Shown here: in pieces, positions 13,340 through 47,797 of the stretch
Position numbering within the stretch: the first letter of the stretch is position 1
Layout: the number at the start of each line of letters is the position of its first letter
Source: Brachyspira suanatina
GTDB lineage: Bacteria; Spirochaetota; Brachyspiria; Brachyspirales; Brachyspiraceae
Reading direction: 5' to 3'
Length of the DNA stretch: 64,000 nt
Assembly: GCF_001049755.1 (NCBI RefSeq)
Contig: NZ_CVLB01000001.1
Coordinates: forward strand, 1 to 64,000
The notes under the pieces: generated by a model
Databases searched by the model: none
What the model was told of the DNA's origin: nothing
Seen by the model: the letters and a program-made list of their open reading frames with translations, nothing else
Made by a program: the position numbers and the translations under genes

Positions 13340-13894
13340 ATGAGTACAGAAAGAATTATTTTTGCAGGCTTCGGCGGACAGGGTGTTATGTCTATGGGAC
13401 AGATGATAGCCTATGCCGGAATGATAGAAAATAAGCATGTTACTTGGTGTCCTTCTTATGGCCCTGAGATGAGAGGAGGTACTGCTAATTGTTCAGTAGT
13501 TGTAAGTGATGAACTTGTAGGCTCTCCTATGATTTCTCATGATGCCAGTGCGGCAGTTATTATGAATCTTCCTTCTCTTACCAAATTTGAAAAAGATGTT
13601 CTTCCTAATGGAATACTTTTAATAAATTCATCTTTGATAGATAAAAAGGCTTCAAGAGATGATATAAAAGTTGCTTATGTTGAAGCAAATAAAATTGCAG
13701 GCGATATAGGCAATCCTAAATCTGCTAATATGGTTATGCTTGGTGCTTTGCTTACACTTCATAATATAGTATCATTTGACAGTGTGCAGCAGGCATTTTT
13801 GAAGGTATTCGGAGAGCGTAAGAAAGATTTTCTTCCGTCCAATGAAAAGGCTCTTAATGCTGGACGCGATGCAGTTAAAGATTTAGTATCTTAA
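13340..13894 (+). CDS. 2-oxoacid:ferredoxin oxidoreductase gamma subunit
   Basis: 184 residues. The POR_C opening FAGFGGQGVMSMGQMIAYAG and the later GPEMRGGTANCSVVVS are diagnostic of the gamma subunit. It completes a four-subunit enzyme (delta-alpha-beta-gamma, genes 11302-13894). AAAGGAGGG precedes the ATG. Oddity: the last ~16 codons together with the downstream hairpin recur twice more just beyond the stop (see 13845-14350). The intact copy has TGGACGCGATGCAG where the two vestiges have CGGACGCGATGCCG. Confidence 0.87.
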   Translation: MSTERIIFAGFGGQGVMSMGQMIAYAGMIENKHVTWCPSYGPEMRGGTANCSVVVSDELVGSPMISHDASAAVIMNLPSLTKFEKDVLPNGILLINSSLIDKKASRDDIKVAYVEANKIAGDIGNPKSANMVMLGALLTLHNIVSFDSVQQAFLKVFGERKKDFLPSNEKALNAGRDAVKDLVS

Positions 13895-13930
13895 TGTAAT
13901 ATAGTTATTTAATAAATAAAAAAGCTTGAG

Positions 13931-13994
13931 ATAAAAAATTACGAGTGCCTGCTATTTGAAAAATGGCAGGCTCTTTTTACGAGTAATTTTTTAT
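13931..13994 (+). terminator. Terminator hairpin, copy 1
   Basis: Outer arms ATAAAAAATTAC / GTAATTTTTTAT and inner arms GAGtGCCTGC / GCAGGCTC enclose a 13-nt loop; CTTTTT follows the inner stem. It acts 37 nt after the gamma stop and could also work in reverse. Confidence 0.85.
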
Positions 13995-14090
13995 ATATAA
14001 ATAAAAAAGGCTCTTAATGCCGGACGCGATGCCGTTAAAGATTTAGTATCTTAATGAATATAGTTATTTAATAAATAAAAAAAGCTTGAG

Positions 14091-14154
14091 ATAAAAAATT
14101 ACGAGTGCCTGCTATTTGAAAAATGGCAGGCTCTTTTTACGAGTAATTTTTTAT
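14091..14154 (+). terminator. Terminator hairpin, copy 2
   Basis: Same nested stem as copy 1 (GCCTGC/GCAGGC inner, ATAAAAAATTAC outer). Confidence 0.8.
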
Positions 14155-14284
14155 TTATAAATAAAGTTTTTAGCGAAAATTTTTTTATATATAAATAAAA
14201 AAGGCATTAAATGCCGGACGCGATGCCGTTAAAGATTTAGTATCTTAATGTAATATAGTTATTTAATAAATAAAAAAGCTTGAG

Positions 14285-14348
14285 ATAAAAAATTACGAGT
14301 GCCTGCTATTTGAAAAATGGCAGGCTCTTTTTACGAGTAATTTTTTAT
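14285..14348 (+). terminator. Terminator hairpin, copy 3
   Basis: Same nested stem as copies 1 and 2. Confidence 0.8.
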
Positions 14349-14593
14349 TTATAAATAAAAGGTTCTTTTAATGGGTAGTTTTTTATTTATTTTTTATATC
14401 AACTTTTTTGGCTTTGCCAAAGTTGCAAAAAAGACATATAAATATTTTAACATAAACTAATGTTATTATAAATTTATTTGATTCTACTTAATGACATTTT
14501 ATTTTTTATAAAAGTCTTATATTTTCAAAAATGGCACTAGTAATGAATATTTTCTTAATTTACTTTTATATATTTATTTGTTATAATTTGTTT

Positions 14594-35607: not shown

Positions 35608-36978
35608 CTATTCTCCAAAAATTGCATTAACTAAATTTACTTTATCATCATTTTCTTCATTAATAATATCATCTGTACCAAACTGTATTAAACTAGATAA
35701 AGCATCAGGAAAATCTAAATAGCTAAATACATTTCCTTTTATATTGCTTCCTTCAAGTGAATCATCAAAATTTAATAATTGATTAAGTGCTATATATCCT
35801 CGTCCATCATTTGTCTTAAGCCATTTATCGGTATCAGATTCTTTAGGAACTTTCTGCCAGCTTTTTGGAAAATACACTTTATCATATATCAAATAACTTG
35901 CATTTACTATTCTCTCTGCCTTATTTTTATGCACATAAAACGGAGTAACTTCAAAATGTTTTTCTAATCTTTTTACTAATTCTTTTTGAGCAAAATTACT
36001 TTCGCATAATATTTTTTTTATATTTTTGTTTGATAGAAACTTTATTATGCTTTCATCTGTGGTAGAGTTAGAATCATTTCTTATAAGACCTGAATCTATT
36101 AAATAAATATCTTCTCCTATCTGCGTATATATTATAGCTGAAGTGAAACAATTATATTCTCCAAATGCCGGATCTACTACAGCTTTATGTTCTGATGAAT
36201 TAATTTTTTCTTTTATATCGTTTAAGTTATTATCATAGAATTTTAATTTTGAATATAGGAAAATTTTGCCTTGTTTATTTTTTATTTTTCCAAGCCAAAT
36301 ATGATCATACATTTTTGGCATAAGTTTTAAAGTAGAAAGTCTTGATTTATTTAATATATCACTGAAATAATAATTGCCGTCATAATTGATAAATGTAATT
36401 AATATATTATTATCTTCATATTCATGATATGGATACTCTTTATTATTTTTATCGGTGTAGAATTTTTTTATTAATTTAAATTGCGATACAGTTTTATATA
36501 TAAAGTCTGTTTCAAATCTAGGGTTAAATGCAATCCATATTTCACTTTTATTTGCTCTTATAGAAGGTTCCAATATTTCGTAGCTTCTTTGTGTGAGAGT
36601 TTGAGCTTCTTCTATAAAACATATTCTTACATTATAAATGGATTTAATTTCTTCAATAGAACATTCTCTAATACCTAAAAATATAAATTTACAATTTGTA
36701 ATTTTATTAATGATTTCATTTCTTTTTATATTAAAAAACTTTTCTAATTTTAATTCTTTTATAATACTTATTAAAAGTGGGTAGGTTGAATAGCTAATTG
36801 ATTTTTGTATTTCTCTTGAGCATAGTATTACACCGTTATTTTCAAAACTTTTAGCTATCAATATTCTTGCTATTGATTCGCTTTTTCCGCCTCCTCGTCC
36901 TCCGAATGATATTTTTAATCTCTTTTCAGTATTTGCCCATTTCTCAAAAGGCTTCAAAATATTAAACTTGATATTCAT
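35608..36978 (-). CDS. Phage terminase large subunit (PBSX type), orphan
   Basis: 456 residues, full-length for the family. The N-terminal ATPase has Walker A GGRGGGKSES (K32) and Walker B RICFIEEAQ; the C-terminal nuclease has VDPAFGEYNCFTSAI and a closing FPDALSSLIQFGTDD. It would cut and pump DNA into a prophage or gene-transfer particle. The frame is intact, but there are no portal, capsid or tail genes nearby, so it is isolated. A small-subunit-like HTH gene lies 26 kb away at 62921. The ribosome site is poor (TGAGAAAAAATT before the ATG). It may belong to a scattered gene-transfer or satellite system, or be a relic not yet mutated. Confidence 0.82.
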   Translation of the reverse strand: MNIKFNILKPFEKWANTEKRLKISFGGRGGGKSESIARILIAKSFENNGVILCSREIQKSISYSTYPLLISIIKELKLEKFFNIKRNEIINKITNCKFIFLGIRECSIEEIKSIYNVRICFIEEAQTLTQRSYEILEPSIRANKSEIWIAFNPRFETDFIYKTVSQFKLIKKFYTDKNNKEYPYHEYEDNNILITFINYDGNYYFSDILNKSRLSTLKLMPKMYDHIWLGKIKNKQGKIFLYSKLKFYDNNLNDIKEKINSSEHKAVVDPAFGEYNCFTSAIIYTQIGEDIYLIDSGLIRNDSNSTTDESIIKFLSNKNIKKILCESNFAQKELVKRLEKHFEVTPFYVHKNKAERIVNASYLIYDKVYFPKSWQKVPKESDTDKWLKTNDGRGYIALNQLLNFDDSLEGSNIKGNVFSYLDFPDALSSLIQFGTDDIINEENDDKVNLVNAIFGE

Positions 36979-40237: not shown

Positions 40238-40279
40238 ATTTAAAAATGTAAATTTATTTGAAAATTTTTGTAAAAAAAA

Positions 40280-40308
40280 TTGACATCTAACCATAAATGT
40301 ATTATAAT
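40280..40308 (+). promoter_or_regulatory. Fully consensus promoter of the Asn/Tyr-rich protein gene
   Basis: TTGACA (40280-40285), 17-nt spacer, TATAAT (40303-40308), a perfect match to the sigma-70 consensus. The leader is ~40 nt and contains repeated TTTAC/GTAAA words. Confidence 0.75.
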
Positions 40309-40358
40309 GTAAATACAGTAAACAATAAATTTACAATATATTTACAAAGGATATGTTT

Positions 40359-41522
40359 ATGAGAAAAATAATTTTTAAAGCAATACCTGCCTTGATAATA
40401 TCTTCAGGTATGTTGTTTGCTCAATATTATGATCCATATAATTATCAGAATGGTTATAACTATCAAAATAATCAGAATAATTATAATGCATATCAGAATA
40501 ATAATGTCCCTGCAAATAACTACTATAATAATTATTATCAGGAATTTATGAGAACTTTATCCGAGGAAGCAAATAACCCTAACAGTATTTATTATAGTCC
40601 TGGATTTTATGAACAATATAATGATTATAATGCTATGCAGGGAAATCCATATCAGGATACTATGAATGCTATGAATTGGGCTTCTCAAAATTATAATGCT
40701 CAGCCTAATTATAATAATACCGCACAAAATCAATATCAGAATAATTATTATAGTGGCTATGATAATACTTATCAAGATCCATATCAAAATAATTATTATG
40801 GCGGTTATGATAATACTGCACAAAATACATATCAAAGCGGTTATGACAATTATAATAATCAAGCATATAATAATACAGCAGGTTATGTAAATCCTTATGA
40901 AGAATTAATGAAAATGTTGGAAAGAGAATCCAAAAATCCTAATAGTCCGTACTATAGCCCTAATCAAAATGGATATAATAATAGTTATGATAATGCTGCA
41001 CAAAATAATTATTATAATCCTTATGACTATAATGCTTATGATAATACTTATCAAGATCCATATCAAAATAATTATTATGGCGGTTATGACAATACTGCAC
41101 AAGATCAAAATGGATATTATACTGGATACGATTATAATGCTTATACTCAAACAAATAATAATATGTCAGATAATCCTTACAAGTTAGCTGCTGAAGCCTT
41201 AATAAAGGCAGCAGAAGAATTAACTAGAAAAGCAAATGGTATGCCAGAGCAAAATAATATTCCTACTGACAATCAGAATTTAAACAATAATAATCAGACT
41301 ACAGGAAATACTCAGAATGCACCATTATATGTTCAGGATTTTTATACTCCTTTCAAAGTTCCTCAAGTAGTTTTAGATACAGCTGCTACAAAATATCCTA
41401 ATGTTCAGATATTAGATGTAGAAGTAAAAGAGATAGGTACTTATGAAGTTAGAATGGCAAATAATATGAGACTTTATATTGATAGAAATGGAAACTTCCT
41501 TCGAGAAATGGTAGATTATTAA
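40359..41522 (+). CDS. Secreted Asn/Tyr/Gln-rich repetitive protein with C-terminal PepSY-like domain
   Basis: 387 residues. Signal peptide MRKIIFKAIPALIISSGMLFA, cleaved before QYYDPY. Residues ~22-270 are dominated by Asn, Tyr, Gln and Gly in units like DPYQNNYYGGYDNTAQ, with two longer repeats of the form EELMxxLxxExxNPNSxYYSP. The C-terminal ~65 residues (YTPFKVPQVVLDTAATKYPN ... YEVRMANNMRLYIDRNGNF) look like a PepSY-like (BLIP-like) domain. The start at 40359 is chosen because AAAGG is 8 nt before it, whereas the upstream ATG at 40353 is only 2 nt from it. The ideal promoter suggests strong expression. A periplasmic or surface role is inferred. The composition is that of prion-like domains. 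Confidence 0.75.
   Translation: MRKIIFKAIPALIISSGMLFAQYYDPYNYQNGYNYQNNQNNYNAYQNNNVPANNYYNNYYQEFMRTLSEEANNPNSIYYSPGFYEQYNDYNAMQGNPYQDTMNAMNWASQNYNAQPNYNNTAQNQYQNNYYSGYDNTYQDPYQNNYYGGYDNTAQNTYQSGYDNYNNQAYNNTAGYVNPYEELMKMLERESKNPNSPYYSPNQNGYNNSYDNAAQNNYYNPYDYNAYDNTYQDPYQNNYYGGYDNTAQDQNGYYTGYDYNAYTQTNNNMSDNPYKLAAEALIKAAEELTRKANGMPEQNNIPTDNQNLNNNNQTTGNTQNAPLYVQDFYTPFKVPQVVLDTAATKYPNVQILDVEVKEIGTYEVRMANNMRLYIDRNGNFLREMVDY
40765..41100 (+). repeat. Near-identical ~60-nt direct repeats inside the Asn/Tyr-rich gene
   Basis: About 40759-40822 and 41038-41101 differ by a base or two; both code DNTYQDPYQNNYYGGYDNTA. They allow unequal recombination that would change the repeat number. Confidence 0.8.
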
Positions 41523-41544
41523 ACATATTTTTGTTTTTGCAAAG

Positions 41545-41573
41545 AGAGTCCCTACTATTTGGGGCTCTTTTTT
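41545..41573 (+). terminator. Terminator of the Asn/Tyr-rich protein gene
   Basis: AGAGTCCC (41545-41552) pairs with GGGGCTCT (41561-41568) over an 8-nt loop and is followed by TTTTTT. Confidence 0.85.
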
Positions 41574-43216: not shown

Positions 43217-43990
43217 TTAAAAAAACATTAGTTCAGTAATCGGTTTAAAATTAAAATCCCAATCACTATTTACTAGTATTGTATGTCCGTCAATATTATC
43301 AAAATAAAATGTTATGCAGTTTTTGGAATATATACTTATAGATTCTAAACTTATTAATTTTATGAATTCTTCTCTTTCCATATTATGAGGTTTAAATATA
43401 CTTTCTGCAGCACACTCTTTTAATTTACTGTCAATATCTTTTTTATTAGAGAATATTTTTTTGATTATATCAACGCTTTGTTTATTAAACTCTTCATCAA
43501 TATTATCAAAGAAAATTGAAATATTACTGTCAGTCCAAGTCATCTCTTTCTTAAAACTGTTTATATCCTTATTAAGCACAAAATCACCTAATTCTTCATC
43601 TTTATAATAAATAATCTCTGAATATTTTTCCAATATGATATTTAAATCATCATCTTTATAATTACTATCAACTATATCTTCAAGTAAAAAATTAATATAG
43701 AAATCATCAGGATATTTTTCTTTTCTTACCTTTAATTTTACTATGCTCTCATCTTTAAGAATTTTTAAATATTCTTCAGGTTCTTTAACTTTTTTATGAA
43801 TGATAATATGAGTGTTTTCTATAATGACATTAGCGGCAATATTTTTTAAAGCTATAGCTGAAACGAATAAAGTATAATATTTGTCCCAAGGTATTTTATT
43901 ATATTTGCAGCATGACATTTTTAGTACGAATGCCATGTCAAAAATTTCATCATCAAAATCTTTATTAAAATCTTTAATTTCTTTATCCAT
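43217..43990 (-). CDS. DUF2262-like protein, paralogue A
   Basis: 257 residues, cytoplasmic, acidic. It opens MDKEIKDFNKDFDDEIFDMA. Its N-terminal ~130 residues are nearly the same as paralogue C (47909). The C-terminal DUF2262-like region is shortened and diverged: where the other copies have FDDGDIFxGHxIxVxSDYDF, this one has FDNIDGHTILVNSDWDF. AGGATATATAA before the ATG gives a ribosome site. The family call is from the pattern EEFxKLIxLxSIxI...FDDGD and is moderate. Role unknown; related small domains are often found with toxin-immunity loci. Confidence 0.6.
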   Translation of the reverse strand: MDKEIKDFNKDFDDEIFDMAFVLKMSCCKYNKIPWDKYYTLFVSAIALKNIAANVIIENTHIIIHKKVKEPEEYLKILKDESIVKLKVRKEKYPDDFYINFLLEDIVDSNYKDDDLNIILEKYSEIIYYKDEELGDFVLNKDINSFKKEMTWTDSNISIFFDNIDEEFNKQSVDIIKKIFSNKKDIDSKLKECAAESIFKPHNMEREEFIKLISLESISIYSKNCITFYFDNIDGHTILVNSDWDFNFKPITELMFF

Positions 43991-44054
43991 TTATATATCC
44001 TGTTAATATTGTAATATGCTAATATAAAATATCAATAATAAATTTTAAAACTTT

Positions 44055-44260
44055 TATTAATACCCCGCCCTTTATTCTTTATAACTAACTTTTAAATTTT
44101 AATATTTACTATCTTTATAACTTATTTAGAAATTATAGCACCCGCCCAAGTGTTAATTAAGTTTATAATTTATCTAACGCACGGTAAGTAAAATTTAATA
44201 TATAATAAAATTTGAATTATATATAAATTTATATTTTAAGCTTTATTTAGCGTGCGTAAG
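44055..44260. repeat. Right half of type B plus type A unit between paralogues A and B
   Basis: CCCCGCCCTTTATTC (~44062), AGCACCCGCCCAAGTG (~44137), then type A from CGCACGGTAAG (~44176) to AGCGTGCGTAAG (~44249). This occupies nearly the whole gap 43991-44275. Confidence 0.7.
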
Positions 44261-44275
44261 TAAATTAAAAATTAA

Positions 44276-45079
44276 TTATCCTATTATATAAGGCTCTGCA
44301 AAATTAAAATCATAGTCGCTGTCTACTGCTATTACATGTCCAGAGAAAATATCGCCGTCATCAAAATAAAATGTTATATTATCTTCGTATATAATATTTA
44401 TAGATGTTAAGGTTATTAATTTTACAAAATCTTCTTTGTTTATATTAGGTTTGTCATCATCATCGTTCCAGCTGTTGGCATCTTCAAGCATGTTTTCTGA
44501 TATATAGTCTTTTAGTTTTTTGTCAATATCTTTTTTATTAGTAAATATTTTTCTGATTATAGCAACACTTTTTTTATTGACTTCTTCATCAATATTTTTA
44601 AAGAGAACCGAAATATTATCATCATTCCATTCTATATCTTTACTAAACATGTCTATAGACTTATCAAGCTCGAAATTTCCTAATTCTTCATCTTTATAAT
44701 AAACAGGCTTAGAATATTCTTCTAATATAATATTTAAATCATTATCTTTATAGTTGGTATCAATAATATCTTCAAGCAGGAATCTCATATATAAACCAGA
44801 TGAATCTTTTTCTTTTCTTACTTTTAATCTTACTATTGTTTTGTTTCTGAATATTTGAAAATAATGTTTGGTATCTTCAATTTCTTTTACTATAAGTAAA
44901 TTTTCATTTTCTATAATTTCATTGGTGATAATATTTTTATATGCAATTGCAGATACCAATAGAGTATAATATTTTCCTTTTGACTTACCAGCTGATAAAT
45001 TTTGCTTTTTTAAAACGAATGCTATATCAAAAATTTCTTCATCAAAATTTTTATTAAAATATTCAATTTCTTTGTCCAT
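44276..45079 (-). CDS. DUF2262-like protein, paralogue B
   Basis: 267 residues. MDKEIEYFNKNFDEEIFDIA at the N-terminus, NEDFVKLITLTS-like block and FYFDDGDIFSGHVIAVDSDY at the C-terminus. Its N-terminal half is the most divergent of the three copies, while the block DIDKKLKDYISENMLEDANS is almost the same at DNA level as in paralogue C. AGGATATAAAA precedes the ATG. It starts 26 nt after the end of the truncated DUF4132 gene and is probably co-transcribed. Function unknown. Confidence 0.65.
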   Translation of the reverse strand: MDKEIEYFNKNFDEEIFDIAFVLKKQNLSAGKSKGKYYTLLVSAIAYKNIITNEIIENENLLIVKEIEDTKHYFQIFRNKTIVRLKVRKEKDSSGLYMRFLLEDIIDTNYKDNDLNIILEEYSKPVYYKDEELGNFELDKSIDMFSKDIEWNDDNISVLFKNIDEEVNKKSVAIIRKIFTNKKDIDKKLKDYISENMLEDANSWNDDDDKPNINKEDFVKLITLTSINIIYEDNITFYFDDGDIFSGHVIAVDSDYDFNFAEPYIIG

Positions 45080-45105: not shown

Positions 45106-47589
45106 TTATAGTATATCTAATACTTTGCCAGCCTTTTTTAATACATTTTTAGCGGCTTTTTTGACTTTCTTATTTTTAACTTGTAAATATATTTTATTTA
45201 TTAATGATAATGCAAAGCTGCTTCCATTCAAAGCCATAGCATATACTGCATAAGCTGCTAATTCTTCACTATCATTCATATCATTTGATGCCCAATCTTC
45301 AATTTGTGTTTTTAATTGTAAGAGTTTATCTTCAGTTTGGAAAATACAATATGGAATAAGTATGTTTTTTAATAATATATCATATGTTGTATAAGATATA
45401 TTATTAGTATCATACGGTAATTGTAAGAGTTTATCTTTAGTTAAATTATTATACTGAACAAAGATATTTTTGATTTCTGTATTTGATTTATTTTTAATCC
45501 AATTATAATATATAGCGTCAAGTGCATTTCTAAATGAATCAATATCAAAAAACTCTGCTATTTTATTACAGTCTTTTAATATAGAAGGTTCTTTTAATGC
45601 AGCATATTCCATAAATACATACTTAACTATTTTTAATGGAGATACAGTTTTCTTGTCTTTTAATAGTATATTAGAAAGTATATTTTCATCTATATCTTTT
45701 ATTAAAATTTCATGTTCTTTATTATACTGTTTATTTATATATTCTTCTATTTCATCAATATTTTTGAATTTGAAATCAGCATCAATTTTTTGTAAGTCCC
45801 AATATTTAATTATTTCTTGATAAATTTTTATTGATGATTTTTTTCCTTCAACTGCTAATTTTTCTACTTCGCTTCTTATAGAAATTCCGTAATTCTTTAT
45901 TATTAATATGCAGTGATTTTTTATTCTTTGATCTATTTCTATATTAAGAACTTTGAAAACAAAATCAAATTTATTATCTATTAAACTTCTTAATTCATCA
46001 CTGAAAATGGCATTAATAAATGATATAGTACATTTAGTATTTTCTGTTATGACATTGATGAACGCTTCTTCTTTTATAATATTTTTTGTTTCTTCCAAAT
46101 TGTTTTTTATAAGAGTTATAATATCATCTTCCGACTTTATAAATAAATATATATCTTTTAATTCTACTTCTTTTTCATTAACCAATTTTTCTTTAATTTC
46201 TAAAATATTTTTATTATAGAATATTTTCTGAATATAAATATAAATTTTGATGTATATTATATAATACTTTAATAATATATCAGTAATTTTTGATGCTTCT
46301 TCATTTATTTCATCAAATAACATTATAGCTGATAAATAAGCACTATAACTGCCATTAGGCTTTTCTTTTATATATTTAATACTTTTGGAAATTATATCAT
46401 CGAAACTTTTAATAGATTCTATTTTTTTCAAGAACTCTGCAGAAATTTCTTTTAACTTTGATAAAATAGAATTGGTATCTATATTATATTTATTATCATT
46501 CACTGCAAGCATAATTGCTGAAAGCACAACATAATCAAGATATAGACATTCTAATTTTGATTTTTCTATTATCTCATAAAGTTTATAAAATGTTGTTTTG
46601 TCTTCATCATATAGTCTTTTTAATTCCACTGTTAAAGATGAAGTACAATGTGTATTTCTATCACAATATATTTTGTTTAAGAAAATATATTCTTTAGGAA
46701 AATGGCATGTTTCTAAATATTCATCTGCAACTTCTCTTGCTTCAAAATAATGATATGTTGTATCTTCTGAATATTTTTTAAATAATCTTTTACATAATTC
46801 TATATTAGTTATCATTACAGAATCTAAATTTACAATAAAATATATTATATTATTATCTTTATTTAAAACATTCATTAACCTTTTAAAAACTTCTTCATCT
46901 TTATCAACTATAGTAAAAAGTAATGATATAGTTTCTTCATCATTGATTTTTAGTAAGTCTATATAATTTAATAATTGTTTAATGAGTTTTTTATCATCAT
47001 ATCTATTTATGATATATACTAAAATAGTTAATAATAAATGAGGCTCTTTTTCTAATAATACTTTACTATCATTTTTTACTTTTTCTAAATATTGATTAAA
47101 CTTTTTACCTATATAACTTTCTAATTTTAAAAAATTATTAAAATTCTTATTTTGTATTTTTATGTATACATATCCATTATTATTTTTTAACTGAGATTTA
47201 GAATATTTTTTATTATCTATATATATTTCTTCAATACCAATATTATAACTTTCTATTAAAACTTTTTCTAAATCTTCCCCAGAGCATAATCTTACAATCA
47301 TATAAGTAGTAATTATTATATAATTAGGATTAGGCTTACCTTTGTATATATCTTTAATCATTACTTTGGCATACCTAGACAGTACTTCTTTATATTCTTT
47401 TGAAGTATTTTCATCAAAATAAAATTTGAAAATTTCTTCAGCATAATAAAGATAATTTCTACTCAATGTAGGACAGCTATTTGATATTCCGTAAAAATAA
47501 TCAAGGAATGCATCCTTATTATTTTCATGAGAAAACATTTCTTCAAACTTATTTCTTATTTTTTCTTCATTACTAATACTATTTTTCAT
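45106..47589 (-). CDS. DUF4132-family protein lacking the C-terminal domain
   Basis: 827 residues, all helical, no signal peptide. It aligns along its length with the N-terminal ~800 residues of the 1116-residue protein at 51204 (SNEEKIRNKFE, IGKKFNQYLEKVKNDSKVLL and KEPHLLLTILVYIINR are shared blocks). It stops at KKAAKNVLKKAGKVLDIL, where the longer one goes on into the DUF4132 domain. It also has a ~33-residue internal duplication: KNIFVQYNNLTKDKLLQL followed by KNILIPYCIFQTEDKLLQL. The ATG at 47589 is preferred to a TTG three codons earlier. Function unknown. Confidence 0.65.
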   Translation of the reverse strand: MKNSISNEEKIRNKFEEMFSHENNKDAFLDYFYGISNSCPTLSRNYLYYAEEIFKFYFDENTSKEYKEVLSRYAKVMIKDIYKGKPNPNYIIITTYMIVRLCSGEDLEKVLIESYNIGIEEIYIDNKKYSKSQLKNNNGYVYIKIQNKNFNNFLKLESYIGKKFNQYLEKVKNDSKVLLEKEPHLLLTILVYIINRYDDKKLIKQLLNYIDLLKINDEETISLLFTIVDKDEEVFKRLMNVLNKDNNIIYFIVNLDSVMITNIELCKRLFKKYSEDTTYHYFEAREVADEYLETCHFPKEYIFLNKIYCDRNTHCTSSLTVELKRLYDEDKTTFYKLYEIIEKSKLECLYLDYVVLSAIMLAVNDNKYNIDTNSILSKLKEISAEFLKKIESIKSFDDIISKSIKYIKEKPNGSYSAYLSAIMLFDEINEEASKITDILLKYYIIYIKIYIYIQKIFYNKNILEIKEKLVNEKEVELKDIYLFIKSEDDIITLIKNNLEETKNIIKEEAFINVITENTKCTISFINAIFSDELRSLIDNKFDFVFKVLNIEIDQRIKNHCILIIKNYGISIRSEVEKLAVEGKKSSIKIYQEIIKYWDLQKIDADFKFKNIDEIEEYINKQYNKEHEILIKDIDENILSNILLKDKKTVSPLKIVKYVFMEYAALKEPSILKDCNKIAEFFDIDSFRNALDAIYYNWIKNKSNTEIKNIFVQYNNLTKDKLLQLPYDTNNISYTTYDILLKNILIPYCIFQTEDKLLQLKTQIEDWASNDMNDSEELAAYAVYAMALNGSSFALSLINKIYLQVKNKKVKKAAKNVLKKAGKVLDIL

Positions 47590-47797
47590 AAAAACCAACC
47601 TATTAACAATATTTTTTATGTAGTATAATTATTTTTTTTATTCTGTCAAATTTTATTATTATGTTTGTTTACTGTAATTATTAAACAATTGATACAAATT
47701 GTTTTTAAGATATGCATAATATCTTTATAATATGATTTTTATTGTATTTATATATTTTATCACAAGTTAAAGTGTTCTTATATTAAAAATTTATTTA

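Follow-up and report, generated by a model that had tools for sequence, protein, structure and literature searches.

What kind of product is made by a gene that joins a signal peptide, a long asparagine- and tyrosine-rich region and a PepSY-like domain behind a perfect consensus promoter, and is this product a prion-like scaffold, as an earlier note made from the sequence had proposed? The gene lies in Brachyspira suanatina (genome total 3,258,009 bases) in the window, i.e. the stretch of 64,000 nucleotides on contig 1 that was analysed, where it forms an open reading frame of 387 residues; the nearest related loci are all from Brachyspira. An alternative start at 40353, six bases upstream of 40359, is open too, and 40359 was preferred because the AAAGGA in front of it fits this position. 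The signal peptide that had been claimed is discernible by inspection (MRKIIFKAIPALIISSGMLFA/Q), as it is in all orthologues. The best reading, made from the sequence, is a monocistronic gene with a product that is probably exported, either to the periplasm or to the surface. The features of the locus are collected in Table 1.

Table 1. Features of the Asn/Tyr-rich gene and its control region (coordinates of the window).
Feature	Coordinates	Strand	Basis and remarks
Upstream array in 11-bp register: TGTAAA 40247-40252, degenerate TTGAAA 40258-40263, TGTAAA 40269-40274, -35 TTGACA 40280-40285	40247..40285	+	Sequence; register in orthologues and paralogues
Core promoter TTGACA-17-TATAAT	40280..40308	+	Exact; 15 of 16 orthologues exact, the remaining one TTGACT (one base off)
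Downstream boxes TGTAAA 40308-40313, TTTACA 40330-40335, TTTACA 40341-40346, 22 and 11 bp apart	40308..40346	+	Positions kept in orthologues
Shine-Dalgarno-like AAAGGA	40345..40350	+	Sequence; aligned in orthologues
Gene, putatively secreted Asn/Tyr-rich PepSY-like protein, 387 aa	40359..41522	+	ORF and orthologue comparison
Signal peptide, ca. residues 1-21, MRKIIFKAIPALIISSGMLFA/Q, without lipobox	40359..40424	+	Inspection of own and orthologue sequences
Island A, residues 55-92, YYQEFMRTLSEEANNPNSIYYSP...	40521..40634	+	80% mean identity to own protein vs 49% in linkers; predicted helix 59-71
Island B, residues 96-113, NPYQDTMNAMNWASQNYN	40644..40697	+	Orthologue alignment; predicted helix 97-114
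66-nt repeat, copy 1	40758..40823	+	Repeat comparison
Island C, residues 177-202, NPYEELMKMLERESKNPNSPYYSP, homologous to island A	40887..40964	+	Orthologue alignment; A/C alignment
66-nt repeat, copy 2, 65/66 identical to copy 1	41037..41102	+	Repeat comparison
Island D, residues 271-293, NPYKLAAEALIKAAEELTRKA	41169..41237	+	Orthologue alignment; predicted helix 273-292
PF11396 PepSY_like half-repeat, residues 328-387, alpha + four beta strands	41340..41519	+	Profile, AlphaFold, fold search
Intrinsic terminator-like hairpin and T-run	41541..41572	+	Sequence; comparable hairpins 3' of orthologues

The Asn/Tyr-rich domain, put at about 250 residues in the earlier note, takes up ca. 302 residues between the signal peptide and the C-terminal domain (N 24.5%, Y 18.2%, Q 9.9%, G 5%, K 1.7%, I 1.0%), with Asn, Tyr and Gln together amounting to ca. 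52%; its linkers hold ca. 7% Asp and 4% Pro and are nearly devoid of Lys and Arg. Among all proteins of the window it has both the best 60-residue N/Q/Y stretch (67%, the runner-up protein reaching 35%) and the highest PAPA-type score (0.16, on a yeast-trained scale). The PAPA training set consists of yeast cytosolic prions. Prion-like domains of the yeast and FUS types share with this region the richness in N, Q, Y and G, the low number of charges and the predicted disorder; the Brachyspira protein differs from them in being bacterial and probably exported and in carrying embedded conserved helical motifs, and the likeness is one of composition. Random codons at equal base composition would give N 8.7, Y 6.2, Q 3.7, K 10.9 and I 12.1%; Lys and Ile thus lie ca. 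six- to twelve-fold below this AT-rich null. Because Asn, Tyr and Gln stand above the null, and Lys and Ile below it, and because the N+Y+Q fraction stays at 0.50-0.56 in all 15 aligned orthologues (306-387 aa), the composition is prion-like beyond base-composition bias, and AT drift is ruled out as its origin. The same data bear on the view that slippage in AT-rich DNA yielded Asn/Tyr codon repeats that are tolerated without having any role: the genome is AT-rich (27% GC; PMC4603578) and the repeat units do grow and shrink between species, yet the residues that AT drift favours most are the depleted ones, N+Y+Q remains constant across 15 species, and protein and control region are both conserved, making such a by-product very improbable.

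The near-identical DNA repeats, described earlier as 60-nt repeats, are 66-nt units whose two copies are spaced 279 nt apart; weaker 48-nt tandem units also occur in the gene. Repeat number differs between species (one genome compared per species), and the predicted repeat-driven variation in length holds at this level, the orthologues varying in linker length over the range given above. Elsewhere in the window, tandem repeats with periods of 160 and 194 nt (96-97% matches) lie at 13845-14359, and two adjacent, similar ORFs (MDKEI-YFNKNFD/E-EIFD...) lie at 43217-45079 on the minus strand, and the window has more ORFs of this type at other places; together with an adjoining long ORF (45106-47598) the pair reads as a repeated paralogous cassette.

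Low complexity does not extend over the whole central region, as four short, amphipathic islands (A to D) interrupt it. Identity of the orthologues to the B. suanatina protein is 80-91% in the almost gap-free islands, 74% in the PepSY-like domain and 49% in the linkers, which have 30% gaps. Islands A and C align with 61% identity (E 6e-10 in a two-sequence comparison) along the stretches YQEFMRTLSE-EANNPNSIYYSP and YEELMKML-ERESKNPNSPYYSP. The full-length AlphaFold model is mostly of low confidence (mean pLDDT 37.7), and its helices coincide with islands A, B, C and D at low to moderate confidence (pLDDT about 55). The conserved islands, and the helices found at them, argue for a spacer-plus-motif architecture and against a single amyloid domain; the conservation pattern therefore suggests an uncharged, flexible spacer, free in length and fixed in composition, combined with four docking-type helices and one folded domain. 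The term prion-like, which the composition bears out, is consequently an incomplete description of this protein. It might still be a functional amyloid, with the exported N/Y/Q spacers polymerising into surface or periplasmic fibres and the PepSY-like domain acting as cap, anchor or solubility brake. This would suit the N/Q/Y composition and its maintenance across species, the near absence of Lys and Arg from the spacers, and the PAPA-type score, albeit one obtained with a yeast-trained tool. Against it stand the lack of regular, curli-like beta-arcade repeats, the helical islands that break up the sequence, the Asp and Pro content of the linkers, and the fact that no dedicated secretion or nucleator genes were seen beside the gene, and we consider fibres of this kind unlikely. 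Self-association of the tyrosine-rich spacers, as condensate or amyloid, is plausible from their make-up; owing to the conserved islands it is not the best-supported single reading.

The C-terminal domain, rightly called PepSY-like in the earlier note, matches PF11396 (PepSY_like) with E 4.6e-6; in protein mode its 27.3 bits fall just short of the cut-off of 28.3, and a six-frame search of the genome places it above the cut-off. A true PepSY domain (PF03413) was considered and rejected, as it found no match in the B. suanatina genome. A profile of the domain searched against the PDB gave 3due (E 3.1e-8) and 3db7 (E 8e-8) as best matches. The low-confidence full-length model was excluded from the fold search, and the C-terminal domain was used instead (pLDDT 87.7; H-E-E-E-E, that is, a helix and four strands, a BLIP-like half-repeat); the same two structures were the top Foldseek matches with weak E-values (0.006 and 0.011, respectively; TMq 0.69 and rmsd 1.8 for 3due). 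PF11396 proteins usually have two half-repeats, single copies being known as well (PMC2954215). The tandem pair is absent here, profile positions 36-82 alone being matched. The protein thus resembles the periplasmic PF11396 (DUF2874) proteins of Bacteroides, BVU2987 (3due) and BT0923 (3db7), in its C-terminal alpha-beta4 half-repeat and in its predicted export, and differs from the PDB members listed for the family in that its single half-repeat ends a ca. 300-residue N/Y/Q-rich region with four helical islands, a region found in none of them. BT0922-0923 of B. thetaiotaomicron, annotated as PepSY-like (3db7 is the structure of BT0923), are responsive to iron limitation (PMC10434189), and by analogy envelope or metal stress would be a reasonable candidate signal.

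The family is expanded in B. suanatina to about 20 genes, some of which consist of the single domain alone (83 aa). This expansion, and the resemblance of the PF11396 fold to BLIP, PepSY and SmpA_OmlA, from which an inhibitory function was proposed (PMC2954215), would fit a periplasmic inhibitor or chaperone-like protein in which activity resides in the PepSY/BLIP-like domain, directed at a peptidase or lytic enzyme, and the N-terminal region is a passive tether. However, islands A to D are at least as conserved as the PepSY-like domain, which argues against a passive N-terminal half, and only one half-repeat is present instead of the usual two (PMC2954215); we therefore hold this explanation to be rather unlikely.

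Orthologues occupy the equivalent locus in 16 of the 26 Brachyspira species genomes, including, besides B. suanatina, B. hampsonii, B. innocens and B. alvinipulli. A set of species with smaller genomes among the 26 searched yielded no such gene. Some of the genomes lacking it are 98-99% complete, so that the absence is real there, two others being only 85-88% complete. The downstream neighbour is kept wherever the flank reaches, except in the flank of locus L014, and the upstream lipoprotein gene is kept in most cases. At loci L037 and L038, from B. alvinipulli and from a related metagenome genome, a pst-like operon (phosphate-type solute-binding protein and ABC components) stands in place of the lipoprotein gene, and our gene is divergent from it. 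A phage origin was considered and dismissed, as tblastn found no match in phage records. Separately, an ORF at 35608-36978 (minus strand) reads like a phage large terminase and suggests prophage or transfer-agent genes near by.

The promoter described as ideal is indeed exact. Perfect TTGACA-17-TATAAT promoters number 31 in the genome versus 3 for the reversed pattern, so that it looks real and yet is not unique, and these 31 copies rule out its rarity as a sign of something special. What had escaped the earlier note is a regulatory array specific to the family, which recurs at other PepSY-like genes. The control region is common to our gene and about nine other PF11396 genes of B. suanatina, and many genes of the family are preceded by a common layout with boxes at -33, -22 and -11, followed by TTGACA-N16/17-TATAAT or TATACT and then by TGTAAA-N5-TTTACA. 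Searched genome-wide, the exact composite GTAAA-N6-GTAAA-N5-TTGACA has 7 matches, all 7 directly upstream of PF11396 genes; exact TGTAAA-N5-TTTACA palindromes lie upstream of such genes in 9 of 11 cases, and exact TTTACA-N5-TTTACA sites in 6 of 11, our gene included. Since some array promoters are recent duplicates, the independent promoter events are fewer than these counts. Across the genus-wide loci the mean number of boxes per 200 bp upstream is 2.68 for 75 PF11396 genes against 0.46 for 180 others (Mann-Whitney p 3e-13, indicative only because the genes are related); the contrast is if anything understated, as part of the 180 control genes belong to loci that had been chosen on account of their boxes. 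About half of the PF11396 genes are without the array, and it is present too in species that lack the gene under study.

Within this set our gene is by its pattern a weaker member, because its middle box is degenerate and it matches the composite only at 2 mismatches, a level at which the search returns 24 matches versus 18 for the reversed control. Its membership rests on the conservation of boxes and phase in the orthologues, on two exact upstream boxes and on the downstream boxes. The upstream regions of the orthologues align with strong conservation, the hexamer TGTAAA/TTTACA occurring five times; before the -35, TGTAAA is exact at 33 and 11 bases and degenerate at 22. In three orthologues the first box is one base off register, and the G009 alignment has the usual layout. 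Invariant columns number 72 of 130, versus 7 of 188 upstream of the next gene, a contrast that we do not rely on as several of the control windows look misregistered.

A second low-complexity PF11396 protein has the same promoter grammar (L049:1480-2097, minus strand; C3:70849 region of the B. suanatina genome). Like the 387-residue protein it has a signal peptide (ending in LFAQY), low-complexity repeats of variable length and the PF11396 domain; it differs in its size (205 aa), in being Q/G- rather than N-rich (GGYQDPYGQQGG-type Gln/Gly/Tyr repeats), in having two half-repeats, and in showing none of the motifs A to D on inspection. The number of its repeats differs from species to species, with lengths of about 182-206 aa, and directly 3' of it lies a single-domain PF11396 gene of 83 aa.

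As to the regulator, direct hexamer repeats of 11 bases beside the -35 are in the style of the OmpR/PhoB family, and all 26 Brachyspira genomes searched contain one, and no more than one, response regulator with an OmpR-type DNA-binding domain. On these two grounds it is the leading candidate. In B. suanatina it is encoded at C1:1917202-1917420 of genome G000 (L121:1486-2172, minus strand), next to a gene for a regulator that by eye is MntR/DtxR-like. Its best PDB matches are MtrA and RegX3 for the full length, and CovR and RegX3 for the DNA-binding domain. Neither a kinase gene in its flanks (3.2 kb in all) nor a box array at its own gene was found. Direct TGTWAH repeats at 11-bp pitch near the -35 are found in the paralogues with the exact composite and in part at our gene, and the TGTAAA hexamers at this pitch fit the WalR/VicR (YycF) consensus TGTWAH-N5-TGTWAH (PMC4168254). 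The Brachyspira sites differ from those of WalR, however, in having up to three slots abutting the -35 and inverted boxes downstream, their targets being PF11396 genes, and the regulator's DNA-binding domain is by sequence nearer to CovR- and RegX3-type chains. A WalR orthologue with an adjacent WalK-type kinase is not supported, given 3.2 kb of kinase-free flanks and the MtrA, RegX3 and CovR matches. Another regulator, or a pair of them, may act, since inverted and downstream boxes are untypical of OmpR-family sites; a second factor may be the one that uses the palindromes downstream. A Pho regulon, prompted by the pst-like operon of B. alvinipulli, was also discarded: the best pstS match of the B. 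suanatina genome has no TGTAAA/TTTACA boxes upstream.

On balance we lean towards an envelope-regulon protein of the PF11396 (PepSY_like/BLIP-like) family, whose disordered, sticky spacer would present helical binding motifs together with a BLIP-like domain, with OmpR-type co-regulation as a candidate. The sole OmpR/PhoB-type response regulator would bind the 11-bp direct repeats and switch the PF11396 envelope genes together; flexible, uncharged N/Y/Q spacers would separate the helical docking motifs (the duplicated pair A and C, then B and D), and the C-terminal BLIP-like domain would bind an envelope partner. The protein could thus be an extended, multivalent binder or scaffold of the periplasm or the surface, with its reach tuned by the repeat-driven length of the spacers. 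A bolder scenario, in which a single orphan OmpR-type regulator drives the PepSY/BLIP-like set through a rigid three-slot grammar and the tyrosine-rich, prion-like domains of two members assemble an extracytoplasmic matrix through condensation or as amyloid, seems to us quite unlikely.

In the open-access literature we found no paper holding both Brachyspira and PepSY, and none of the papers combining Brachyspira with prion-like deals with this protein, judged by title and abstract. The 387-residue protein is a new form of a known domain family. As far as we checked the open-access literature, the promoter grammar and regulon of PF11396 are undescribed, and they are the more consequential result. 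PF11396 is widespread in gut bacteria as a family of "function unknown"; a promoter grammar that recurs across the genus in front of a large part of its genes, together with one OmpR-type regulator per genome, turns it into a testable regulon, and its Asn/Tyr-rich member offers, in compact natural form, an example of a probably secreted bacterial prion-like region in which composition is conserved while length drifts.
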